The notes beneath the pieces were generated by a model. It saw only the letters and a list, made by a program, of their open reading frames with translations. It did no database searches and had not been told where the DNA came from. A program made the position numbers and the translations under genes. Shown here piece after piece: positions 8,955-29,620 of a stretch of DNA of 41,425 nucleotides. This DNA comes from a virus, in the IMG/VR virus record IMGVR_UViG_3300010399_000056, positions 1 to 41,425 of that record. One strand, written 5' to 3'. How positions within the stretch are numbered: position 1 is the first letter of the stretch; each line of letters opens with the position of its first letter.

Positions 8955-11900
8955 ATGATCAGCGAAATCGAAATCCGGCTACGCGCCGATATCGCCCGGC
9001 TCCAACAAGACATGGACCAGGCCCGCAAAGCAGTCGGCGGCGGTCTGGATAAAATCAATGCGGCGGTGGGCAAAACCGTCGGACTGCTGGGCGGCCTGGC
9101 GGTGGGTGCCGCTGCCGTTTCCTTTGCCAGTTTCATTAAAGGCGCCATCGACGCCACCGACGCGCTGAACGATTTGAGCGCGCGCACCCAGGTATCCGTG
9201 GAGGATCTTGGGGGGCTGGCCTATGCCGCGAAGCTTTCCGGCACCGAGCTGGATGCGGTAGCGGGCGCGGTGAACAAGCTGGGCCAGAACGTCGGCAAAG
9301 AAACGGACAAATTCCGCGCGCTGGGCGTCACCGCCACCGAGCCGCTGGAAGCGTTTAAGCAGCTGGCCGAGGTGTTCAAAGCCATCCAGGACCCACAGCA
9401 AAGGGCCGCCTTCGGTGCGGCAGCGCTCGGCAAGTCGTGGGCGGAAGTTGCGCCGCTGCTGGACGCCGGCGCGGACGGTATCGACAACCTGGTGAAACGG
9501 GGCAAAGAACTTTCCGGGGTGACGCAGCAGAGCGCGGAGCAGGCGGCCGCCCTGAACGACAAACTGGACGAACTGAGTTTCCGCGCGCAAGGCCTTGGCA
9601 AGAGGCTGGCGGCCGAGGTGGTGCCGGCGCTGGACAAGACAGTCACCGCAGTGACCGCAGCCTATGACGAGTCGGGCAAGCTGGCCGCTCTGTGGACTTC
9701 CCTCGGCGCCGTCGGCGCTTTCCTGTTCACCGACGAATTTGCGAGCGCTTCAGTACAGCTCAAGGGTTTGAACAAGGAACTGGCCCAAACACTCCAGGAT
9801 CTGCAGCTGGCCAAGGAAGCCCCGGCGGTGGGCTTCCTGGGCCGCTGGCTGTTCGGGGAAACCGAAGGGCAACTGGAAAGCAAGGTTGCCAGCCTGCGCG
9901 CACAGATCAAAGGGCTGCAAGGAGAAGTGCCGGCAAAAGACGAACTGGCCGAGTTCATGGCCGGCGTCGACAAGGCGATATCGGACGGGCAGAAGGCCGC
10001 GAAAGCAGCGGAATTCCTCCAGGCCGAAGAGATCGCAGCCGCACGCAAGAAAGCGGCCGAAGAGGCGCAAGCCGCCGCGAAAAAAGAGACCGACGCGTAC
10101 CGCAGCACCATCAGCGCGATCCGGGAAAAACTGGCTGCCGACCAAGCAGAAATGGCCGCAGGTGTGCCGCTGCTGGAAGCGCAAAAAGAGCGGATCAAGC
10201 TGGATCAAGACCTGAAAGAAGGCAAGCTGGTCCTCACTGCAGCGCACGAAAAAGAAGTGCGCGCGGCACTGGAAGCGTTGGAGGTACAGGAGAAGCTGCG
10301 CCGATCCGCTGAGCAGACCAAGAAAGCCACGGAGGAGTTGAACGAAGAGCGCGCGGACGACTACCGGGCTGCGCTCCAGGAAGCCAAGGCCGCCGAGGCG
10401 CTGGTCGAAAATTTTGGCAAAACGAAACAGGCGATCGAACGGGCCACCCTTGCGCGCATGGAGGAGCGGCTGGCACAGCGGGGCGCGCTGGAATTGGACA
10501 AGGCCGAGGTAGAGCAGCTCGAGAGGCTGATCGAGGCGAAGAAACGCGCCGTAGACGCCGGTGACCAGCTGGAGGTACTGGAGCGGCAGAAGGCCGCCAC
10601 CGAAGAGGCCACGAAAGCCCAACAGGATATGTGGAAAGCCATCGAGGACACTGCGCACGATACCTTCGTCAGCATCCTGGACGGCGGCAAGAACGTCGGG
10701 CAGCGGCTGAAAGACTCGCTGAAAAATACTTTTTTCGATTGGCTCTACCAGCAGACCCTGAAAAAGTGGATCATCAACATCGGCACGTCCATGAGCGGCG
10801 GCGCGGCGGGTGGTGGCGGGGACGTCGCCTCGGGCCTGCAACAGGCCGCGGCGATCTTTGGCGGCGGCAGCACGGCCGGCGCCGGCGGATCGTCCAGCGC
10901 GCTAAGCTTGCTATCGACCGGCAAATCAGTCTACGACGCGATCACCAAGGGCTTTGCGGGCGTATCCGCCAGCATCGGCACTATGGTATCTGGTTTCGGC
11001 AACGCGATCGGCTCCAGTGGCATCAGCGCATTCGGCACAGGCATGGGCCTGACCAGCGAGCAGGCCGCAGCGGCTGCCGCCCAATATTCAGCGGCTGGTG
11101 CCGGCAGCACTGGGGCAGGGCTCACGGCCGGCGCCGGCTTCGCCAAGGCGATACCGATCATCGGGTGGATCATCGCAGGTATGCAGGCGGCAAATGGTTT
11201 CATGAAACAGGGATTCACTCCAGGTCGTGACCTGAATGCCGCCGGCAAAGTCGTCGGCGCCCCGACCAATTTCGAATACAGCTCCATGCGCAAGCTGGGT
11301 GTTGGCTCGTCCCTCGCTAATATCATCTCCGGCGCCGCGATCACCACAAAGCTGTTCGGGCGCGCAGCGCCCCGGGTGGAGAGCCAAGGGATTAGCGGCA
11401 TGTTCGGGCCGGAGGGTTTCAGCGGGGAGACGTACCAGAACTGGCTGGCCAAGGGCGGCCTGTTCCGCAGCGACAAGAGGGGCACCAACAAGCAAGCGGT
11501 GTCTGGTGAAAGCGCATCAATTCTGTCAGAAAGCTTCGGCAACGTGAAAGCCATGGCGCTGGCATTCGCCGATGCGTTGGGGGCACCGACCGACCAGATC
11601 ACCACGTACACCCGCACCATTAAGATGGCGTTGACGTCGGATGACACGAAGAATCAGGAAATCTTCAACCAGCTGATGAACGACATCGGCAACGATCTGG
11701 CTTATCGGCTCGTACCGAACCTGGACAAATTCCAGCAGAAGAACGAAACAGCCAGCGCTGCGTTGGCGCGTCTGACCAACAATTACGTGTCGCTGGATGC
11801 GGTGCTCAAGACCATCGGGACAACGTTCGGGGCGGTGGGCGTCGGCAGTCTGGAGGCGCGCGAACGGCTGATCACACTGTCCGGCGGCCTGGAACAATTG

Positions 11901-18053: not shown

Positions 18054-18383
18054 ATGGCCGCCGATCTGCCAACACCTGAAAGCACCATACTGGGGGTAAA
18101 AACCGCCACGCTGGTGTGCTCTTTCATTGGGGCCGCCCTGTCGCTCAGCTACGCCAAGGAAATGACGCGTAGCCAGGCCGTCGTGGCGGTGCTGACTGGC
18201 ACCTCGGTGGCGGTGTTCGCGGCGCCGCTGGCGCTGCACTACCTCGGTCTGTCCGAGGGTTTCGAGCGCGCTGTGGCGTTCTTCACCGGGCTGTTGGCCA
18301 TCCGTGCTGTGCCGGTGGCGCTCGGCTTGGTGGAACGTGTGCGCGACATTAAGCTGCCCAATCTTCCAGACAACAAGGAATGA
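18054..18383 (+). CDS. Putative holin (three membrane segments)
   Basis: A 109-residue membrane protein directly before the endolysin cluster. Hydrophobic segments lie near residues 14-34 (GVKTATLVCSFIGAALSLSY), 43-64 (VAVLTGTSVAVFAAPLALHYL) and 72-93. The C terminus is charged (VRDIKLPNLPDNKE). Size, topology and position fit a class I holin that would open the inner membrane and release the cytoplasmic lysozyme. The ribosome site is GAGGGGAG. The next gene is also a small membrane protein, so one of the two may act as an antiholin or second holin. Confidence 0.75.
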   Translation: MAADLPTPESTILGVKTATLVCSFIGAALSLSYAKEMTRSQAVVAVLTGTSVAVFAAPLALHYLGLSEGFERAVAFFTGLLAIRAVPVALGLVERVRDIKLPNLPDNKE

Positions 18384-18384
18384 T

Positions 18385-18636
18385 ATGGTTGCCTTCAATA
18401 TCCTACAAGCTGCCGCAGCGCTGTACGTGTTGGGCGTCGGGCTGATCGCCCTGAACCGCATGAGCCACAACACCGCGCACACCATACGCTTTGCGTACAT
18501 CACCCTCACGGCCGGCGCGTTGGCGGCCCTGGCGTCGACCGTCGGCGCTACCAGCAAATTTGAATGCGCCTTCGCCGTCGGCGTGGCGCTGTACCTGGCA
18601 GCGGATCGCCGCAAACACCGAAAGGCCCGACAATGA
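18385..18636 (+). CDS. Second small membrane protein of the lysis cassette
   Basis: An 83-residue protein starting one base after the stop of the first holin candidate, with the ribosome site AAGGAA inside that gene. Hydrophobic stretches are near residues 6-24 (LQAAAALYVLGVGLIAL), 36-54 (AYITLTAGALAALASTVG) and 61-74, and the tail is very basic (DRRKHRKARQ). Holin or antiholin are the likely roles. Its stop overlaps the endolysin ATG (ATGA), so it is coupled to lysozyme synthesis. Confidence 0.7.
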   Translation: MVAFNILQAAAALYVLGVGLIALNRMSHNTAHTIRFAYITLTAGALAALASTVGATSKFECAFAVGVALYLAADRRKHRKARQ

Positions 18637-19049
18637 ACGAGCAACGACTGTACGTCGATCTGCGCCGCGACGAAGGCGAGAAGAACAGGCCTTACCGCGA
18701 CACCGTGGGCAAGTGGACTATCGGGGTGGGCCGCAACCTGGACGACGTGGGTCTGCGCGCGGATGAAATGGCGCTCATGCTCAAGAACGACGTGGCCAAC
18801 GCGGTGTATCACCTGGACACGAATTTCCCCTGGTGGCGCCAGATGACCGACGCCCGCCAGAACGCGCTTGTCAACATGTGTTTCAACATGGGGATCGCGC
18901 GGCTCAAGGGCTTCGTGAATATGCTGGCTATGCTGGCAAAGGGCAGCTACGACGAGGCCGCCGATGAAGCGCTCAAATCCAAGTGGGCATCCCAGGTGGG
19001 CAGCCGCGCCGAGCGCATCGCCGCCATTTTCCGCAAAGGGGAATACTGA
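18633..19049 (+). CDS. Endolysin, T4-type lysozyme (GH24)
   Basis: Muramidase that would cut the MurNAc-GlcNAc bond of peptidoglycan. It has 138 residues. The catalytic triad is visible near the N terminus: Glu14 in RRDEGEK, Asp23 in YRDTVG and Thr29 in KWTIGVG, with the same 9 and 6 residue spacing as T4 lysozyme. ATG 18633 overlaps the preceding stop. There is no signal peptide or N-terminal anchor, so the enzyme should depend on the holin to leave the cytoplasm. The C-terminal half has the usual ARQNALVNMCFNMG region. Rz and Rz1 follow. Confidence 0.95.
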   Translation: MNEQRLYVDLRRDEGEKNRPYRDTVGKWTIGVGRNLDDVGLRADEMALMLKNDVANAVYHLDTNFPWWRQMTDARQNALVNMCFNMGIARLKGFVNMLAMLAKGSYDEAADEALKSKWASQVGSRAERIAAIFRKGEY

Positions 19050-19564
19050 TGCCACCCCGGCTGCTGGGCTATCTGGCGGCCGCCCTGGTGGTGCTCGGCG
19101 CGCTGGCCGGCGTCTACTTCAAAGGCCAATCCAACGGCAAAGCCCAGGTACAAGCCAAGTGGGACGCAGCCAATACGCGGGCGGCCGTAGCGCAAAAGCT
19201 GGCCGACGAAGCGCAACAAAAGCGCTTCGACGCCCTGGAAACGAGTTACAAAACGAAGAACATCGAGGTGTCCAATGACCACCAAAAAGCTATCGATGCG
19301 TTGTTCGCTGACCTGGTTCGCGCCCGCGCTGATGTGCGCGCTGCTGGCGGGCTGCGCATCCCGTCCACAGTATGTGCCAGCGCAGCAGAAGGAACCGCCA
19401 AAGCCGGTGGCGACAGCCGACATGATGCAGACGTTGCCGGCACCGTCGCACTTCCTGAACGAATTGAAACTGATCTTCTCGATCTCGCAGCCGAAGCCGA
19501 TCGCGTCACAGAAATAGCCCGGTCCTGCCAGGCCTGGGTGCGCAAACAGGGCTTCTATCAGTAA
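19049..19564 (+). CDS. Inner-membrane spanin (Rz)
   Basis: A 171-residue protein; the start ATG overlaps the lysozyme stop (TGATG). An N-terminal membrane segment (LLGYLAAALVVLGALAGVYF, residues 5-24) is followed by a long periplasmic coiled coil (QVQAKWDAANTRAAVAQKLADEAQ and beyond). It would pair with Rz1 to fuse inner and outer membranes at the last step of lysis. The C terminus contains two Cys (VCASAA, SCQAW). The Rz1 gene is fully nested in its +1 frame. Confidence 0.9.
   Translation: MPPRLLGYLAAALVVLGALAGVYFKGQSNGKAQVQAKWDAANTRAAVAQKLADEAQQKRFDALETSYKTKNIEVSNDHQKAIDALFADLVRARADVRAAGGLRIPSTVCASAAEGTAKAGGDSRHDADVAGTVALPERIETDLLDLAAEADRVTEIARSCQAWVRKQGFYQ
19275..19517 (+). CDS. Outer-membrane lipoprotein spanin (Rz1), nested in Rz
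   Basis: An 80-residue protein read in the +1 frame entirely inside Rz, the arrangement known from lambda. The signal sequence is basic-hydrophobic with a clear lipobox LLAGC, giving lipidation at Cys27. The mature part is Pro-rich (RPQYVPAQQKEPPKP), as in most Rz1 proteins, and somewhat longer than lambda Rz1. GAGGTG eight bases upstream supplies the ribosome site. It is predicted to be anchored in the outer membrane and bind the C terminus of Rz. Confidence 0.92.
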   Translation: MTTKKLSMRCSLTWFAPALMCALLAGCASRPQYVPAQQKEPPKPVATADMMQTLPAPSHFLNELKLIFSISQPKPIASQK

Positions 19565-20005: not shown

Positions 20006-20070
20006 GGCTCAGCCGGACACTATTGACCATTCGCAAATACCTGCGAACTAAACAACTAGTGGAGGCCATC

Positions 20071-21036
20071 ATGGGCATGGAAGGCGTAAGCGACAAAGTA
20101 AATATCAACCTGGGCGATGGTTACGGCCGTGGCGGCGGTGGCGACAGCCTGGGTGGCGCAGGCCTTGCAGCGGTGATCGCCGCGCTGGGCAACCGCAACG
20201 AGGGCGGCGACACCGCCGGCCTGATCGCCGCGCTGGGCAACCGCAACAACGACGGCCTGGGCGGTGGCGGTCTGGCTGCGATGATGGCCATGAACGGCAA
20301 CAACGGCATGAACAACATGTGGCCGATCATCCTGCTGGCGCTGCTGGGCCGGGGCCGTGGTGGTCTGTTCGGTGGCGGCGATGGTGAATGCGGCGTACCT
20401 GGCGGCATTGGCCCAGGTCAGGCGGCCATCCTGCAAACCCTGTTGGAAGGCCAAAGTTCGTTGCGCGCCGAAGTGCCGACCACCGCACTGGAAACCCAGA
20501 ACGCGATCAACTCGGCCATCGGATCGCTGGCGCTGGGCACGCAGCAGGGCTTCGCCAACACCAAGGACGCAGTGCAAAACGGCATCAGCTTCCTGGACCG
20601 CGATATCCAAATGACCAACCAGAATGTCAGCTCCCAAGGCTGCCAGACCCGCGAAGCCGTGCAGAACGACGGTGACAAGACCCGCGCCCTGTTGGTGTCG
20701 CGCTTCCAGCAGGAAGATGCAACCCGCATTGCCGCGCTCAACGCCGAGGTGATCGAGCTGCGCAACGAAGGCCGCCGCCGCGCCGACCACGACGAACTGC
20801 GCATCCAGGTGTCTAACACCAACGTGGCGAACGCGACCCAGACGCAAGCACAGGCACAGTTCCAAGTGCAAGCGCAGTTCCAGGACCTGAACGCCCGCCT
20901 GGGGCGCCTGTTCGACCGGGTGGACATTGTTCACCAGGAGCAGCGCTCGACCAACGCCAACATCATCGCAGGCAACACCGGTGCCGTTGTGACGGGCCCT
21001 CAGACCTCCACGCCCACCAACGTTAACGCCCGCTAG
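20071..21036 (+). CDS. Gly-rich N-terminal, coiled-coil C-terminal protein of unknown function
   Basis: A 321-residue protein; ATG 20071 follows GTGGAGG, which decides the start over an upstream in-frame ATG. Residues 12-120 are Gly/Asn/Ala-rich with repeated LAAVIAALGNRN units, then a hydrophobic run (MWPIILLALLGRGRGGLFGGG) that might enter a membrane. Residues 150-300 are Gln/Asn/Ala-rich and helical (DGDKTRALLVSRFQQEDATRIAALNAEVIELRNEGRR), a probable coiled coil. Position after the lysis genes, with its own terminator-like hairpin downstream, suggests a virion or assembly protein expressed late. No family was recognised. A 26-bp exact DNA repeat encodes the internal units. Confidence 0.65.
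   Translation: MGMEGVSDKVNINLGDGYGRGGGGDSLGGAGLAAVIAALGNRNEGGDTAGLIAALGNRNNDGLGGGGLAAMMAMNGNNGMNNMWPIILLALLGRGRGGLFGGGDGECGVPGGIGPGQAAILQTLLEGQSSLRAEVPTTALETQNAINSAIGSLALGTQQGFANTKDAVQNGISFLDRDIQMTNQNVSSQGCQTREAVQNDGDKTRALLVSRFQQEDATRIAALNAEVIELRNEGRRRADHDELRIQVSNTNVANATQTQAQAQFQVQAQFQDLNARLGRLFDRVDIVHQEQRSTNANIIAGNTGAVVTGPQTSTPTNVNAR
20174..20247 (+). repeat. Two exact 26-bp direct repeats inside the Gly-rich gene
   Basis: The 26 bases at 20174-20199 recur at 20222-20247, 48 bases apart, both encoding IAALGNRN. Loss of one unit would remove 16 residues in frame. Confidence 0.8.
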
Positions 21037-21109
21037 TATTGATGCGGGCGAGCTGGACGAGTTAGTCCGGTACGTCGAATGGTGGGTCAGGAGATCCCTG
21101 GCGGATTGA
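20993..21109 (+). other. Open +1-frame tail after the 20071 gene, possible tiny gene
   Basis: In the frame +1 to the Gly-rich gene an open stretch runs from 20993 to a TGA at 21107. It ends in a protein-like, amphipathic sequence, SIDAGELDELVRYVEWWVRRSLAD. No ATG or GTG start is present in this frame; ATT 21038 would be needed, or a +1 frameshift near the end of the upstream gene. It ends five bases before the terminator hairpin. Evidence for expression is weak. Confidence 0.25.
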
Positions 21110-21113
21110 AACA

Positions 21114-21140
21114 GACAGCCCCTCGGGGCTGTCATTTTAT
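21114..21140 (+). terminator. Rho-independent terminator
   Basis: GACAGCCC-CTCG-GGGCTGTC (8-bp stem, 21114-21121 with 21126-21133) followed by ATTTTAT. It lies after the 20071 gene and should end late rightward transcripts, with some readthrough to the next small gene. Confidence 0.8.
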
Positions 21141-21152
21141 GAGGAGAGCAGG

Positions 21153-21458
21153 ATGGATCAGCAAGACGATTTGATGCAAACCCTGGCGAAGCTGCGCGCC
21201 CAGATGGCACAGCCGGCCAGCCCCATGGAAATGGTCCGGGCCTCGCTACAGCGCGATCTTGGCCGCAAGCAGGACGTGCCGATCTTCAACGACGAGCAAC
21301 GCGCCACCCTGGTGGCGGACATTGGGAAGATCGAAGCATTCATTAAGAGCCAGGATGGCGCCGACGCGGTGGCGCTACTGGTGGCCACGTTCGAAGCGTT
21401 TGAGCATGGCGGGGATTTGTTCGGGGAGGACGATCCGAAGCCGCACGCGGGCGACTGA
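21153..21458 (+). CDS. Small acidic protein, function unknown
   Basis: A 101-residue protein with a strong ribosome site (GAGGAGAGCAGG) and ATG 21153, transcribed rightward just after a terminator hairpin. It is helical and acidic: QQDDLMQTLAKLRAQM, a DEQRATLVADIGKIEAFIKSQDG helix, then VALLVATFEAFEHGGDLF and a disordered acidic end. Nothing identifies a family. It is the last rightward gene before the convergent leftward operon, and the two transcripts meet at the terminator directly after it. Function unassigned. Confidence 0.65.
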   Translation: MDQQDDLMQTLAKLRAQMAQPASPMEMVRASLQRDLGRKQDVPIFNDEQRATLVADIGKIEAFIKSQDGADAVALLVATFEAFEHGGDLFGEDDPKPHAGD

Positions 21459-21459
21459 C

Positions 21460-21484
21460 AAAAAGACGGCGCCAGGAGGCGCCG
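21460..21484 (-). terminator. Rho-independent terminator of the leftward early operon
   Basis: Read leftward, CGGCGCC-TCCT-GGCGCCG forms a perfect 7-bp stem followed by TCTTTTTG. It lies 25 bases after the last leftward gene, so it should end the whole early leftward transcript. On the rightward strand no T-run follows. Confidence 0.85.
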
Positions 21485-21508
21485 CGGAAAACTGATGTAA
21501 CGGGGGTC

Positions 21509-21604
21509 TCAAGCGTACCACACGCCGAGCACGGCGGCGAGCAGCACAGTGAAAGTAACCGCCGGCTCATGGCGCAGAAGCCACAGCGCGATGCGCCGCT
21601 TCAT
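21509..21604 (-). CDS. 31-residue membrane peptide
   Basis: Reads MKRRIALWLLRHEPAVTFTV and continues for 11 more hydrophobic residues to a TGA. The basic N terminus and one hydrophobic segment (about residues 14-29) predict a single membrane span with the N terminus inside. The ATG overlaps the stop of the upstream 26-residue peptide gene (ATGA), and it is the last gene before the leftward terminator. Overlap coupling in a row of three small membrane genes is the main support. Function unknown; participation in superinfection exclusion together with its neighbour is inference. Confidence 0.6.
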   Translation of the reverse strand: MKRRIALWLLRHEPAVTFTVLLAAVLGVWYA

Positions 21605-21681
21605 TCCAGCCACCAGATCAAGGCCGCCCAGATCGCGATGGCGCCGGCGGCCATCAACCATTCCTTCCAGTTGTCGCTCAT
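21601..21681 (-). CDS. 26-residue membrane peptide
   Basis: Very short: MSDNWKEWLMAAGAIAIWAA and six further residues ending in WWLE. It has one hydrophobic segment with interfacial Trp residues at both ends, typical of single-span peptides. AAGGAGCG gives a good ribosome site, and its ATG overlaps the stop of the superinfection-immunity-like gene (ATGA). It is also overlapped by the next gene. Such small phage peptides often act on envelope proteins or holins; none is recognised here. Confidence 0.6.
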   Translation of the reverse strand: MSDNWKEWLMAAGAIAIWAALIWWLE

Positions 21682-21845
21682 GGCGCGCTCCTTGGCTGTG
21701 GGCGGACGGCGATCGCCAGGGCGACCACCCAGCCGATGATGGTCCAGCCGGTGAACAGGTTGATCACGAACACCATCGCGCGGTCGCGTGGCTTGGCGAC
21801 GATCGAGGGCAGCAGGTACAGCAAGATGACAGCAACAGTTATCAT
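21678..21845 (-). CDS. Superinfection-immunity-like membrane protein (T4 Imm type)
   Basis: A 55-residue protein with two membrane segments (about residues 3-17 and 26-47). The pattern LLYLLPSIVAKPRDRAMVFV then NLFTGWTIIGWVVALAIAV matches the superinfection immunity family (T4 Imm, PF14373): a YxLPSIVA-type first helix, a short basic loop, and the conserved N-LF-GWT-IGWVVAL second helix. T4 Imm sits in the inner membrane and blocks DNA entry of later phages of the same type. The ribosome site is CTGGAAAGA. Recognition is from the conserved second helix, so the family call is good but the specificity is unknown. Confidence 0.82.
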   Translation of the reverse strand: MITVAVILLYLLPSIVAKPRDRAMVFVINLFTGWTIIGWVVALAIAVRPQPRSAP

Positions 21846-21877
21846 GGTCTTTCCAGGTGGGTTTTATTGACGACAAA

Positions 21878-21894
21878 GCCGCGTCGTGCGCGGC
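21878..21894 (-). other. Small hairpin in the gap before the immunity-like gene
   Basis: GCCGCG pairs with CGCGGC around a 5-base loop. On the leftward strand it is followed by TTTGTCG. The rest of the 64-base gap holds no start codon. Weak attenuator or processing site at best. Confidence 0.35.
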
Positions 21895-21909
21895 GTGTGG
21901 TGGTGCTGG

Positions 21910-22104
21910 TTACTTCTGCGTCTCTGCGCGATCACAAGGCTCATCGTCTTGGATGCGGGAGCGCAAGAACTGCTGCCTATTCAATTTCGGGTATTTTTCA
22001 AATTCCGAGCGCTCAGCATCAGAAAAATGCAAGTGACCGCTCTTGCTATTCTCCGATTCTTTGATTCGGAAATTTACCTCTACGACTTTGCTTTCGACTT
22101 TCAT
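21910..22104 (-). CDS. Small charged protein, function unknown
   Basis: A 64-residue protein with ribosome site GAAAGGGC before ATG 22104. Sequence: a strand-like N terminus (KVESKVVEVNFRIKE), then a charged helical part (HFSDAERSEFEKYPKLNRQQFLRS) and a polar tail. No motif or membrane segment. It lies in the leftward early operon, directly after the repeated 27-bp hairpin. Its codon use is more AT-rich than the structural genes, as are its upstream neighbours, suggesting separate acquisition of this cassette. Confidence 0.65.
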   Translation of the reverse strand: MKVESKVVEVNFRIKESENSKSGHLHFSDAERSEFEKYPKLNRQQFLRSRIQDDEPCDRAETQK

Positions 22105-22121
22105 GATGCCCTTTCGTTGAT

Positions 22122-22148
22122 GCGCCCCGAAGGGCGCGGGTTGGTTTA
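22122..22148 (-). repeat. 27-bp repeated intergenic hairpin, copy 1
   Basis: Exact 27-bp match to 26724-26750. Read leftward it is TAAACCAACCC followed by GCGCCC-TTCG-GGGCGC, a UUCG-capped stem. It lies between a stop codon and the next ribosome site, like a 3'-end stabiliser or processing site. Confidence 0.85.
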
Positions 22149-22154
22149 GGCGGC

Positions 22155-22355
22155 TTACTTGATAAGAACGCGCAATGTATGAAAGGCGTATTCTTCTCCG
22201 TCTATTTCAACCAGCCCATCAGAAAGCATCTCTATTCGTTTAATTTCCAGATGCGCAGGGATATGAGCCATGCTGCGCGTTGTAAATTTCTGCTGGAGTA
22301 TATAAGTTCCCTTGTTATATTTTCTTTCAAGTAATAGCTTCTCTTTGCGTTTCAT
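22155..22355 (-). CDS. Small basic protein, function unknown
   Basis: A 66-residue protein whose ATG overlaps the upstream stop (TAATG). The N terminus is strongly basic (KRKEKLLLERKYNKGTYILQQ). The rest looks like a small alpha-beta fold: RSMAHIPAHLEIKRIEMLSDG, then LVEIDGEEYAFHTLRVLI. It is relatively AT-rich. It is third in a set of three overlapping genes transcribed from the first copy of the duplicated promoter. No family recognised. Confidence 0.65.
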   Translation of the reverse strand: MKRKEKLLLERKYNKGTYILQQKFTTRSMAHIPAHLEIKRIEMLSDGLVEIDGEEYAFHTLRVLIK

Positions 22356-22579
22356 TATTTCCCCAATAATAGTAGTCCACGGTTACGCATCACTTTTGCA
22401 AGTATTACCAGCCACGGCCCACATACACATGGGCCTAACGTGCGCTCTATTTCAGCATCGCTTGCATCTTTCGCGCCTTCCGCAACCATTCGCCCAATGA
22501 CCGCGTTGCCATATTTGGAAATAAACGCATCTGCGTGCGCTTCAATTTCTGCCCTCCGACTTGGATCAATTGCGCTCAT
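22355..22579 (-). CDS. Small helical protein, function unknown
   Basis: A 74-residue protein; ATGA overlap with the upstream gene and TAATG overlap with the next. The sequence is helical: PSRRAEIEAHADAFISKYGNAVIGRMVAEGAKDASDAEIERTL, then CVCGPWLVILAKVMRNRG and a hydrophobic tail. Two Cys in CVC might bind metal but no partner pair is present. It sits in the P1 cassette, where genes are small and probably act early on host targets. Confidence 0.65.
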   Translation of the reverse strand: MSAIDPSRRAEIEAHADAFISKYGNAVIGRMVAEGAKDASDAEIERTLGPCVCGPWLVILAKVMRNRGLLLLGK

Positions 22580-22746
22580 GCCGCATCCAGCATCGCCTGC
22601 AGCTTGGCTTTATGCGATTTGCAGAAGTCCAAGTGTTTCTGTGCGTCGGCTGGGCGCAAGGCAACGTTACGTGGGTCTTCCTTGGCGATAAAGCGCTCGC
22701 AGTCAGCAATTGCGCTCTTGATCTTGTTGATTTGGTATTCGCTCAT
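22576..22746 (-). CDS. Small coiled-coil-like protein, first gene of the P1 cassette
   Basis: A 56-residue protein. ATG 22746 is preferred over an upstream in-frame start because GGAGGATCAAGAAA gives a proper ribosome site. The sequence is helical with regular hydrophobic spacing: SEYQINKIKSAIADCERFIAK, a short break at EDPRNVALRP, then ADAQKHLDFCKSHKAKLQAML. Two Cys. It lies about 45 bases after the predicted transcription start of promoter P1. A 28-codon leader frame starting in the promoter repeat overlaps its first 14 codons in another frame. Confidence 0.65.
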   Translation of the reverse strand: MSEYQINKIKSAIADCERFIAKEDPRNVALRPADAQKHLDFCKSHKAKLQAMLDAA

Positions 22747-22789
22747 TTTCTTGATCCTCCATTCCCGCCGCGGCAATCGCTGCGTCCAT
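22703..22789 (-). CDS. Possible leaderless leader peptide MDAAIAAAGM...
   Basis: A 28-codon frame beginning MDAAIAAAGMEDQENERIPN and ending in NC before TGA. Its ATG lies at, or two bases from, the expected transcription start of promoter P1, so translation would be leaderless. The other promoter copy encodes MDAAIGAAGM in the same place. The start belongs to the duplicated segment, which may explain the similarity without function. Expression is unproven. Confidence 0.35.
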   Translation of the reverse strand: MDAAIAAAGMEDQENERIPNQQDQERNC

Positions 22790-22835
22790 GTACCGAACTA
22801 TACCACAAATAAAAACTTGTACAAGTATTTTATTT
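22764..22835 (-). repeat. 72-bp duplicated promoter segment, copy 1
   Basis: Matches 27160-27231 with one mismatch (G at 22773, C at 27169). It spans the end of the helicase gene, the operator palindrome, the promoter and the first codons of a leader frame. The two copies are 4396 bp apart in direct orientation. Confidence 0.92.
22797..22826 (-). promoter_or_regulatory. Leftward early promoter P1 with operator on its -35
   Basis: Read leftward: TTGTAC (-35, 22824-22819), 16 bases, TATAGT (-10, 22802-22797). The -35 is embedded in the perfect palindrome ACTTGTACAAGT (22815-22826), so a bound repressor would exclude RNA polymerase. It drives the cassette down to the 21460 terminator. Confidence 0.82.
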
Positions 22836-24209
22836 GTAGCCGCGTACCTTCATGGCGTCCAGCAGGATGTCCTGCACCTCGCGCTTGCTGTTCACCCGCT
22901 CGATCACCATCTCGTCCACCGTATCCGCAGCTATTATGTTGTAGATAAACATCGCCCGGTCGTGCCCGGCCTGCAGCTGCCGCGTGGGGCCGATCCGCTC
23001 GATGATCTGCATGCGCTCCTCCAGGTTCCACCAGTGCGAGAAGAACACCAGGATATTGCCGCCGTCCTGCAGGTTCAGCCCGTGGCCGGCGCTAGCCGGG
23101 TGGGCGAACAGCAACGGGATCCTGCCTTTGTTCCAGTCCTCGATGGTCTTGGGATCGGCGTCCAGCTGCCGGCCTTGGGGGAAAGCTTTCATCAGCCGGG
23201 CCAGGTCGGACTTGAAATGGTAGGCGACCAAGATCGGCATGCCTCCAGACTCCTCCAGGATGTCCTCCAGCGCGTCCAGCTTCGCGTCGTGGATGCCGCG
23301 CCACTCCTTGCCGTCGTCGCCAACATACGCCGCGCCGGACGCAATTTGCAAACATTTTACCGTCCTCGCAGCGGCGCCGAACGCCTCCACCTCGTGCTGG
23401 TCCAGTTCCATGAACATGCGTTTTTCCATGTCCTCGTACAGCGCCCGGGCCTTGGCCGGCAGATCGACGCGCACGTCGGTGACGACCGGCGCTTTCAGGT
23501 CAAACCAATCTTTGGCCTCGATGGTAATACACAGGTGCGCCAGCGCGCGCTGTATCTGCGCCTGGGCGTGGTCGCGCGGCGTGATCGAGTAGCCGTCGAA
23601 CGACTTTTCAAACCACCGCTGACGGAACGCGTCATAGGTCTTGCCGAGAGCCTGCCCGCGATCGAGGAACCACGCTTGCCCCCATAGGTCGGCCAGACCG
23701 TTGGGCGCCGGCGTGCCGGTCAGTTCGATGAACCGTTTCACCTTGGTGTGCGCCACCCGGCCCAGGGCCTTAGCGCGTGCGGTGCCTTGCCGCAGGCGGA
23801 ACCCTTTCAGCTTCGTCGACTCGTCGGCCACCACGGTGGCGAACGGCCAGCGCTCACCGAAGTGCTCCACCAGCCACGGCAACTGTTCGTAATTCGTCGT
23901 GTAAATATTGCTGTCGTACTTGAGCGCGGCCAGCCGTTCCTTTTCACTGCCGACGATCGGCGTCACCGACAGGTGTCGGAAATTGCGCCACTTGCGCGCT
24001 TCGTCCGGCCAGGTGGAGCGCGCCACGCGAAGCGGGGCAACGATCAGCACCGGGCGATTGTCCAGAAGCTGCAGCGTATCGACAGCGGCCAGGGTGGAGG
24101 AGGTCTTGCCCATGCCCATGCCCGCCCACGCCGCACCGCGCGGCGCGTCCAGCATGTGGTCGATGATCAGCTCTTGATAAGGGCGAGGGGTGAATTCGCG
24201 GGCGGTCAC
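22830..24209 (-). CDS. SNF2-type DEAD-box helicase/ATPase
   Basis: A 459-residue superfamily 2 ATPase likely used in replication or recombination. Motif I is AGMGMGKT (Lys35), motif II is VVADESTKLK, motif III is ELTGTPAPN, motif V is SAGHGLNLQ and motif VI is IIERIGPTRQ. The spacing and the PRPYQELIIDHML opening match phage SNF2-like helicases. The start is GTG 24209, overlapping the upstream stop (GTGA). The last bases lie in the 72-bp promoter repeat. It works with the polymerase and VRR-NUC genes of the same transcript; a direct replicative role is inference. Confidence 0.93.
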   Translation of the reverse strand: MTAREFTPRPYQELIIDHMLDAPRGAAWAGMGMGKTSSTLAAVDTLQLLDNRPVLIVAPLRVARSTWPDEARKWRNFRHLSVTPIVGSEKERLAALKYDSNIYTTNYEQLPWLVEHFGERWPFATVVADESTKLKGFRLRQGTARAKALGRVAHTKVKRFIELTGTPAPNGLADLWGQAWFLDRGQALGKTYDAFRQRWFEKSFDGYSITPRDHAQAQIQRALAHLCITIEAKDWFDLKAPVVTDVRVDLPAKARALYEDMEKRMFMELDQHEVEAFGAAARTVKCLQIASGAAYVGDDGKEWRGIHDAKLDALEDILEESGGMPILVAYHFKSDLARLMKAFPQGRQLDADPKTIEDWNKGRIPLLFAHPASAGHGLNLQDGGNILVFFSHWWNLEERMQIIERIGPTRQLQAGHDRAMFIYNIIAADTVDEMVIERVNSKREVQDILLDAMKVRGYK

Positions 24210-27159: not shown

Positions 27160-27231
27160 CCCGCCGCGCCAATCGCTGCGTCCATGTACCGAACTATACC
27201 ACAAATAAAAACTTGTACAAGTATTTTATTT
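27160..27231 (-). repeat. 72-bp duplicated promoter segment, copy 2
   Basis: Matches 22764-22835 with one mismatch. It begins with the stop codon of the DNA polymerase gene, as copy 1 begins with that of the helicase. Both carry operator, promoter and first codons of a leader frame. Confidence 0.92.
27193..27222 (-). promoter_or_regulatory. Leftward early promoter P2 with operator on its -35
   Basis: Same as P1: TTGTAC, 16 bases, TATAGT (27198-27193), with the palindrome ACTTGTACAAGT at 27211-27222 covering the -35. It re-initiates leftward transcription after the polymerase gene. Confidence 0.82.
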
Positions 27232-29620
27232 AATCCTTGCGGTAGCGATCTGCCTCAAAGCCAGCCGCAGCCAGCGGCAAGCCGGTCGCCCAGTCCGGCA
27301 CGCGCGCCATGAGCGCGGCCAGGTGCTCCGGGTTCCAATCCGGACTATCCGGGGCCTCGCAAATTATTTCGTCGTGCACAGTGAGGGTGATCTCGTAACC
27401 CTGGGCCTCGATTTCGTGCATGTTGGCTGCCATCACGTCGCGCGCGATTGCCTGGCAAATGTTTTCACAAATCATGCCCCCGTATGTGTGGATGCGCTCC
27501 CACTTCCGGGTGTATTGATTCATGCCCATGTACGAAATCGAGGTGCGGCCGCTGGCCGGCGCTTCCTCTTCCAGCTCGGCCTCTGCCTCGTGCTCGTTCT
27601 TGACCTTCTTTTTCTTCTCGGGCACCAGGGCTGGGCCGGGGTAGCACAGCGCGCGACCGGACGGCAGCACGATGCGCAGCCAGGCGCCATCACGTCGAAC
27701 CCGCACCTTGCCGCACTGGATCGTCACACCGGGGTTGGTGATGGCTTCGCGCACACTGACGTCGAGATCTTTCCAGAATTGTTTAACGTTGGCGTGGGCG
27801 TCACGCCAGCCCAGCACGAACGCTTCGCACACCAGCCACGCGCGCTCGCTCAGCCCGGTCAGTTTCAACGGGTTACGGCCGTGCTTCTGATGCCATTCCA
27901 GCATGATGCGAGAGCGGCCCATCACCTCGCCGGGGATCGCGCGGTGGGCCTTCTCGGCCATGTCCTCCAGGTCGATGCCGTAGGTCGCGGCACCGGTCAT
28001 GTACGCGCCCACCCCGCCCTCGTATCCAAGCATCAGCTCCTGCACCTTGCCGATCTGGCGCTGGTCTTTGGACACGTCTGATGGCGAAACGCCAAACGAC
28101 TTGGCGTAAGACAGCTTGTACAGGTCCGGACCGCGCCGCACGGGCTCGTCTTTGGCGTCCAGCTCCAACTCCGGCGCGGCGCCGGCTAGGCAAGCCTCGT
28201 AGTAATCCGGCCCCCGCATCCAGCTGCCGTTCTCCAGCATGAGGGTGTCGAACTCGGCGAACGCTTTCAGCTTCCATTGCTCGCCAGCCACCCAGGCTAA
28301 CACCCGGCCCTCGATGTTCGACAGGTCGGCCACCACCAGTTTGCGGCCGGGCGGCGCCACGATGCACCCCCGGATGGTGGAGCTGGTCAGCTTCATGACG
28401 TTATCGAACAGCAGATCGGCGTAGCCGCCTTTCAGGGCTTCAATGCCCTCGGTAATCTGCGGTGCCGGCAGCAGCCCGCGCGAGGGCAGGTTCTGCGGCT
28501 GGAACAGGCGCCCCGCCCACCTCCCGGTGCGGCTGGCGCCACAGAACTGCAGCAGCCCGCGCAAGCGGCTGTCGGCGCTGGTGCAACGGATCAGCACCCG
28601 GTATTTGCTGGTGCTGGTGGTGGACGCCTGGAGCCGGACGCGCAGTAGCTCTTTCAAGCCCTCGGGGATATCCGGGTCAGCGATACGCCGCTCCAGCGTG
28701 TCCTTTTTCATGTCGGGCAGGTCCACGCCGTACTCGGCCAGCAGGTACTCCAGCAGCTTGTCGCGCTGGGTGGCCGACTCAATGCCCTCGCCCGTCTCTG
28801 GATCGTAACCGGTCATCTGCTGGGCCTTCTCGCGCAGGACGATCTGCGCGGCGTCGACGGCGTTCACCGCGCATTCGGCCAGCTCCAGGTCGATCATGGC
28901 GCCGCGGTCGTTGATCAGCTGGTCAAGCTGCCACAGTGCCAGCTCCGCGCCGCGGTAATTCCACATCGGCATGATCTTGCTGGCCGCGCGCATGGCCACG
29001 ATGTCCTGGCCGGCATAGATCAGGAACTTGTGCCACTCAGCTGGGTGCGTGTCGCGCGTAGCGCGGCCGGCCCACGTCGCCGCGGCGGCCTCTTTCGCTG
29101 CCTTGTAGTCGGCCAGCTTCTCGCCGCCGGCGGTATCGCGCTTGCGGAACTTGAAAGCCTGGGGTTTGCAAAAAAGCTGGATCAATGCCTTGCCCGCTTT
29201 GTCCTTCGCCTTGTCCTCGGGGAGCTTAAGCGCCATGCACATTTGTTCCAGCTTGCCGGGCAGGCCGTGCGCCATGGCCTGCACCATGGTATCGCGCCAG
29301 CGGTGCAATGGGATTTTTAGTCCGGCCACGCGTTCCACGGTGCGGTCAAAACGGGAATTCTGAGCCCACACCTCGCCATCGCCGTTGCGCAGCTCGTCGT
29401 CAATCGCTTCGACATATTCGGCCGGCGCCAGCACCAAGTCGTCGTCGTCCACCAGCAGCCAGTCCTCACCGCCGGGCGTCAGGTCGCGCACCAGGATAGG
29501 GCCATCGCCCAGCGCCAACGCGCGGATCATGATTTCCACACCTTCGCTATAGCGGTCCACCCCGTTGGTGATCTGGAAGGGAGAAAAGGTTTCGTCGTCA
29601 AGCCAAACGCGGGTCGTCAT
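27230..29620 (-). CDS. Family A DNA polymerase
   Basis: Replicative polymerase of 796 residues. An N-terminal 3'-5' exonuclease is recognisable from LDDETFS (D-x-E, residues 8-10), NSRFDRTVERV and YAGQDIVAM. The polymerase has motif A (VVADLSNIEGRVLAW, near residue 440), an O-helix region KVQELMLGYEGGVGAY (motif B), and motif C TVHDEIICEAP near the C terminus. Acidic-basic insertion KKKKVKNEHEAEAELEEEAP lies between motifs B and C and is probably a surface loop. The start ATG overlaps the upstream stop. It is transcribed leftward from P3. Confidence 0.96.
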   Translation of the reverse strand: MTTRVWLDDETFSPFQITNGVDRYSEGVEIMIRALALGDGPILVRDLTPGGEDWLLVDDDDLVLAPAEYVEAIDDELRNGDGEVWAQNSRFDRTVERVAGLKIPLHRWRDTMVQAMAHGLPGKLEQMCMALKLPEDKAKDKAGKALIQLFCKPQAFKFRKRDTAGGEKLADYKAAKEAAAATWAGRATRDTHPAEWHKFLIYAGQDIVAMRAASKIMPMWNYRGAELALWQLDQLINDRGAMIDLELAECAVNAVDAAQIVLREKAQQMTGYDPETGEGIESATQRDKLLEYLLAEYGVDLPDMKKDTLERRIADPDIPEGLKELLRVRLQASTTSTSKYRVLIRCTSADSRLRGLLQFCGASRTGRWAGRLFQPQNLPSRGLLPAPQITEGIEALKGGYADLLFDNVMKLTSSTIRGCIVAPPGRKLVVADLSNIEGRVLAWVAGEQWKLKAFAEFDTLMLENGSWMRGPDYYEACLAGAAPELELDAKDEPVRRGPDLYKLSYAKSFGVSPSDVSKDQRQIGKVQELMLGYEGGVGAYMTGAATYGIDLEDMAEKAHRAIPGEVMGRSRIMLEWHQKHGRNPLKLTGLSERAWLVCEAFVLGWRDAHANVKQFWKDLDVSVREAITNPGVTIQCGKVRVRRDGAWLRIVLPSGRALCYPGPALVPEKKKKVKNEHEAEAELEEEAPASGRTSISYMGMNQYTRKWERIHTYGGMICENICQAIARDVMAANMHEIEAQGYEITLTVHDEIICEAPDSPDWNPEHLAALMARVPDWATGLPLAAAGFEADRYRKD

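Follow-up and report, generated by a model that had tools for sequence, protein, structure and literature searches.

Putative Imm-family exclusion gene and two coupled membrane micropeptide genes at the end of a phage replication operon

Introduction

Imm of bacteriophage T4 is an inner-membrane protein that stops the entry of secondary phage DNA, and it has been described as holin-like and as affecting lysis inhibition (PMC6832632). Strong or full exclusion by T4 Imm is reported to require another membrane protein (PMC9952470). The T4 protein (NP_049660.1, 83 aa) belongs to Pfam family PF14373 (Imm_superinfect), and its gene is located between 42 and imm.1, close to gene 43, within the cluster of DNA-replication genes. 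PF14373 proteins are also present in bacterial chromosomes, an example being Campylobacter Cj0423, which is induced by phage attack (PMC6024767). Because of these bacterial members, exclusion is not proven by family membership, and the name Imm as used below should be taken to denote the domain rather than a proven function.

Here, we describe an imm gene in a 41,425-base virus record with a siphophage-like genome (the window, meaning the whole stretch of DNA analysed). A sequence-only reading had singled out three ATGA-overlapping genes at the end of a leftward operon. It likened the first to T4 imm, regarded the other two as genuine coupled membrane genes without known relatives, and proposed that the three products could form a single exclusion complex, block DNA entry or affect a host transporter. 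We compared this locus with known Imm proteins and with the corresponding region of related phages.

Results

Genome layout

The structural genes and the lysis genes occupy the rightward half of the genome, and the replication genes the leftward half. The lysis set is complete, comprising holin, endolysin, Rz and Rz1 (18054-19564, plus strand). An 83-aa hydrophobic ORF without a PHROG match lies between the holin and endolysin genes (18385-18636), and possibly encodes a second holin or an antiholin. A 326-aa protein, also lacking a PHROG match, is encoded just before the convergent junction (20056-21036), its N-terminal part being glycine-rich with NRN repeats. Replication genes on the leftward strand include a DNA polymerase (27230-29620) and a DNA helicase (22830-24209, minus strand; PHROG 62, E 8e-153). 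The helicase belongs to the same operon as the trio and was used to locate related phages. Neither the record nor five relatives yielded a tyrosine integrase, a serine integrase or a resolvase. The absence of an integrase makes a virulent, T4-like lifestyle probable, with the proviso that such records can be fragments. No DNA-level match to annotated or known phages was obtained for the first 25 kb of the window.

Organisation of the trio

The trio spans 21845-21509 on the minus strand and consists of genes of 55, 26 and 31 codons: imm (21678-21845), which encodes a 55-aa Imm-family membrane protein; p26 (21601-21681), which encodes the 26-aa single-span peptide MSDNWKEWLMAAGAIAIWAALIWWLE; and p31 (21509-21604), the last gene of the operon, which encodes the 31-aa single-helix peptide MKRRIALWLLRHEPAVTFTVLLAAVLGVWYA. 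Both overlaps, at 21681-21678 (imm/p26) and 21604-21601 (p26/p31), have the sequence ATGA, coupling p26 to each of its neighbours. The arrangement at the leftward operon end is thus as initially read. The accompanying statement that all three genes fall below usual length thresholds applies clearly only to the 26-codon gene, as 55 codons are normally called by common gene callers, whose usual lower limit is ~90 nt.

A strong intrinsic terminator-like hairpin follows p31 (21466-21485, minus strand; GCGGCGCC-TCCT-GGCGCCGT, then CTTTTTG), with an 8-bp G+C-rich stem that starts 23 bases past the p31 stop codon. A weaker G+C-rich hairpin followed by TTTG (21878-21894, minus strand; consensus match only) is located between the upstream gene and imm, at the front of the cassette. 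Beyond the operon end lies a convergent gene of 101 aa (21153-21458, plus strand), for which no relative was found. No sigma-70-like promoter site was detected in 21100-23000; the phage may use other promoters or read-through.

Between the helicase and the trio there are four small A+T-rich genes, with a G+C content of 0.48-0.49 versus 0.62 for the window. Two of these, small accessory genes of 64 and 66 aa that belong to no family (21910-22355, minus strand; G+C about 0.48-0.49), precede imm. The A+T-rich cluster at 22105-22830 (G+C 0.48), which lies after the helicase and before the G+C-rich trio, likely represents recent acquisitions. Unlike the A+T-rich genes preceding it, the trio displays third-position G+C at the level of core genes (imm 0.84, p26 0.89 and p31 0.78, versus 0.77-0.84 for the big core genes of the phage).

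The first gene encodes an Imm-family protein

The imm product matches PHROG 1039 ('immunity to superinfection') with E 2.5e-13 and PF14373 with E 7e-13, the latter at 48.6 bits, above the curated cut-off of 27.9. T4 Imm (from NC_000866), scanned identically, gives E 7e-16 and 58.2 bits against PF14373. A pairwise score of 69 was found between the two proteins, compared to a maximum of 50 among 500 shuffles. The first gene is therefore a PF14373/PHROG 1039 protein of the same family as T4 Imm, and the claimed resemblance is borne out. In a 48-sequence family alignment, the P and both GW motifs are invariant and N, T and L near-invariant; the window protein retains P13, N29, G33, W34, T35, G38, W39 and L43.

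The T4 and window proteins share the same motif order, with LP near the end of helix 1 followed by a W-x-IIGW core in the second hydrophobic segment, and both genes lie among replication genes. They differ in length (83 aa versus 55 aa), with three residues fewer separating the two hydrophobic segments in the window protein. They also differ in their neighbours, which for T4 imm are 42 and imm.1, while the window imm is followed by two coupled single-span genes. Imm-like proteins of mycobacteriophages (e.g. Bxb1 and Turj99) are 50-60% identical to the window protein over 40-46 residues, but possess an extra N-terminal region and occur in another genome context without p26 or p31.

The AlphaFold model of the imm product (pLDDT 89.5) has a first helix that is kinked ahead of the conserved proline, and a second hydrophobic segment that is broken at the conserved GWT to give helices 22-32 and 36-47. 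A Foldseek search of the BFVD viral models placed annotated Imm proteins in the top five positions, with E-values (0.04-1.5) that are modest because the protein is tiny. Models from Pseudomonas phage PspYZU05, Mycobacterium phage U2 and Serratia phage PS2 superimpose with TM-scores of 0.70-0.77 and probability 1.00, at E-values of only 0.04-0.1 for so short a protein. Searching the PDB with the same model yielded no matching solved structure.

A compact Imm of 55 aa, closely similar to that of the window, is also encoded in a different phage type (L224:2727-3046), where it adjoins the head-gene strand and is ATGA-coupled to a 51-aa basic soluble protein. This case suggests that Imm is mobile.

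Coding status of p26 and p31

The start codon of p26 is preceded, 6 nt upstream, by the Shine-Dalgarno sequence AAGGAG (21688-21693, minus strand), located within the 3' end of imm. When an ATGA start is given, a hydrophobic ORF of 20-60 aa arises in 0.5% of 20,000 dinucleotide shuffles, and two coupled hydrophobic ORFs in none of the 20,000. No relative of p26 was found in any collection searched, including a tblastn search of 50,697 phages that returned no match at E 10, with the reservation that similarity searches are weak at 26-31 residues. A DNA-pattern search of viral contigs gave 63 matches, none a convincing relative. The first peptide of a tandem in the relative L140 (D-x-W-x-x-W...GA) scores 40 against p26, a value reached by 0.6% of block shuffles; with 18 comparisons made, we regard this as a lead only. 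Neither p26 nor p31 matches Pfam or PHROG at E 0.001 (the best hit, E 0.055, is to an unrelated model), and this includes the known holin and antiholin lysis families.

p31 does have a relative, the only one known, in L078 (MKARVVKWLLRNEPAVTWAVLVAAVLAVLV, positions 10433-10525; 68% identical across 28 residues, with E 8e-8 in tblastn). There it is likewise the last gene of the same operon, in a phage whose helicase is 81% identical to that of the window. Over the 28 aligned codons, 18 of the 30 base changes fall at third positions (p 0.002), with synonymous change saturated and dN 0.23; the match was found via protein similarity, which slightly biases this substitution test, and the genome position provides independent support. 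On this comparison, p31 is a real gene under purifying selection. AlphaFold predicts one helix for p31, spanning residues 3-30 (pLDDT 87), and the N-terminus is strongly basic (KRR...R). A p31 profile run against viral and bacterial genome collections recovered only L078 again (as L160), and a further DNA-pattern search gave nothing. Two tblastn matches to p31 at E 5-6 were obtained among the 50,697 phages; the one from Alcaligenes lies inside a pilot-protein gene and is taken as chance. Kinship of p31 with the terminal-peptide family of L100 and L140 (W-xx-VKRAA-...-AERDLAVQGWL), as a divergent member, was rejected by profile comparison and block shuffles.

It could be argued that p26, and perhaps p31, is not functional, its frame being a by-product of GC-rich coding-like sequence, with only Imm mattering. 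The lack of any p26 relative fits this view. The strong Shine-Dalgarno sequence, the double coupling and the rarity of such an ORF among shuffles speak against it for p26, as does the in-frame purifying selection for p31, and we consider it quite unlikely. As p26 has no relative, its translation is something that we infer. The view that both are genuine coupled membrane genes hence gains strong support for p31 and moderate support for p26, and the claim that they have no known relatives stands for p26 and falls for p31.

The trio does not stay together in relatives

Imm and p31 were found to occur apart. The whole 42-kb record of L078 contains p31 without any PF14373 match and without p26; upstream of its p31 are a terminator-like hairpin and a gene for a 139-aa protein whose start resembles a signal peptide. 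Conversely, the corresponding operon end of L079, L082 and L232, likewise downstream of the helicase, encodes an Imm that resembles the window protein in being compact with a GRRGSVFV-type loop, and that is followed by other small genes. These encode soluble small proteins in L079 and L232 and a weakly hydrophobic one of 45 aa in L082; neither p26 nor p31 was found in the three records.

We furthermore compared the neighbours of 194 distinct Imm loci, drawn from viral and bacterial collections, with those of long ORFs in general. By simple hydrophobicity and Shine-Dalgarno rules, a tiny hydrophobic ORF follows Imm at 4 of the 194 loci (2.1%) and any long ORF in 26 of 1240 cases (2.1%). An ATGA-coupled single-span gene directly follows Imm in L002 and L276, so the arrangement recurs, at background frequency. 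Since the next genes differ and tiny membrane neighbours are not in excess, the trio is not a conserved unit, and the neighbours of the 194 loci rule it out as a widely conserved one; the collections searched exclude records very near the window's own, and a trio shared by the nearest relatives may have escaped notice. In-frame conservation among relatives, on which the original proposal depended, was therefore recovered for p31 as a gene and lost for the trio as a unit.

These results bear directly on the proposal of one inner-membrane exclusion complex, in which p26 and p31 would be dedicated partners of Imm and coupling would set their stoichiometry. The double ATGA coupling within a single hairpin-bounded unit is consistent with such a complex, as are the coupled single-span genes in L002 and L276 and the reported dependence of strong exclusion by T4 Imm on another membrane protein (PMC9952470). 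Against this, p31 is kept in L078 without any Imm, L079, L082 and L232 carry Imm without either peptide, and tiny membrane neighbours are no more frequent after Imm than elsewhere. The comparison hence lends no support to a single complex. We consider it unlikely while retaining it as a minority view, given the apparent need of T4 Imm for a partner and the stoichiometry that coupling would provide.

A variable slot downstream of the helicase

Tiny ATGA-coupled single-span gene pairs were counted around the helicase, with 7 found in 177 kb downstream, compared to 2 in 473 kb on the upstream side and none in antisense orientation. The downstream enrichment (p 0.002) applies to one definition of a pair and is not corrected for the relatedness of the phages. 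The pairs in L140, L142 and L152 consist of genes of 38 plus 44-45 codons, and that in L144 of 32 plus 24 codons. Together with L100, these tandems resemble the window peptides in their position after the helicase, their -4 overlaps and their single-span products of 24-45 aa. They differ in sequence, with no significant similarity to either p26 or p31, and no Imm was found in the L100, L140 and L144 records searched. Because tiny coupled membrane genes of other sequence recur downstream of the helicase, the end of the operon, ahead of the convergent late genes, is by this comparison a variable slot for accessory genes that is enriched in micro-membrane genes, with Imm and p31 as two of its occupants.

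A second true trio, of 30, 35 and 39 codons with four-base overlaps, was observed at the same operon end in L100 (10127-10439), without any Imm; the gene ahead of it encodes a lipoprotein that weakly matches a Gly-zipper model. Peptides of 43-45 aa encoded ~1.0-1.7 kb after the helicase in L140, L142, L146, L152 and L157 share the pattern W-x-x-VKRAA-x-RAERDLAVQGWL... and a C-terminal membrane span, and match no known family; in L140, L142 and L152 they are coupled to a 38-aa peptide beginning MNKPIPTLND. The terminal peptide of L100 and L140 forms a small family of its own, and the operons of L079 and L082 end with a 45-aa peptide that looks tail-anchored. In L144 (2457-2917), a soluble protein of 51 aa that resembles the N-terminus of the W-x-x-VKRAA family is encoded after the tiny membrane genes. 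An Rz1-like lipoprotein gene (PHROG 1275, E 1e-7) also follows them, on the replication strand.

Alternatively, p26 and p31 could act on lysis timing or membrane potential, as small toxic peptides or in the manner of an antiholin or pinholin, being unrelated to exclusion and parked beside the convergent late region. Single-span peptides at an operon end that adjoins spanin and endolysin genes in relatives, the Rz1-like gene after the tiny membrane genes of L144, and the description of T4 Imm as holin-like and affecting lysis inhibition (PMC6832632) would fit such a role. However, the window already possesses a separate and complete rightward lysis set, and p26 and p31 belong to the replication operon, on the other strand. 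A role in lysis is thus considered improbable.

Discussion

With moderate confidence, we favour a reading in which this probably virulent siphophage carries a moron-like accessory cassette at the far end of its replication operon. In this reading, an Imm-type exclusion gene shares the cassette with two independent, swappable membrane micropeptides. The cassette is a hairpin-bounded unit, a terminator-like hairpin also precedes p31 in L078, and the contents of the site vary between close relatives.

Under the favoured reading, Imm would be expressed early with the replication proteins. By analogy with its family, it would insert into the inner membrane and bar the DNA of a secondarily adsorbing phage from the cytoplasm. 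p26 and p31 would be produced along with Imm by translational coupling and inserted as single helices, p31 presumably adopting an N-in/C-out topology because of its basic N-terminus. Most likely, the two are not obligate subunits of Imm but envelope effectors that act separately and can be exchanged. p31 in particular has a function independent of Imm, since it is kept in an Imm-less phage and is under purifying selection of its own. The likeliest task for p26 and p31 may be to add to exclusion or to protect the membrane of the infected cell. A bolder proposal, which we regard as rather unlikely, is that the cassette is a self-contained Imm exclusion machine, in which p26 and/or p31 supply in cis the membrane partner that T4 Imm requires, as one of several swapped micropeptide sets.

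Exclusion by T4 Imm has been known for decades, and both its mechanism and the required membrane partner are unsettled. With an Imm of 55 residues coupled to two single-helix peptides, the locus offers close to the minimal system for asking whether Imm needs a phage-encoded partner. Furthermore, the end of the replication operon in this phage group appears to be a variable slot at which short membrane peptides are swapped. The micropeptides of this slot are candidate exclusion or host-envelope effectors, many of which gene callers likely miss.
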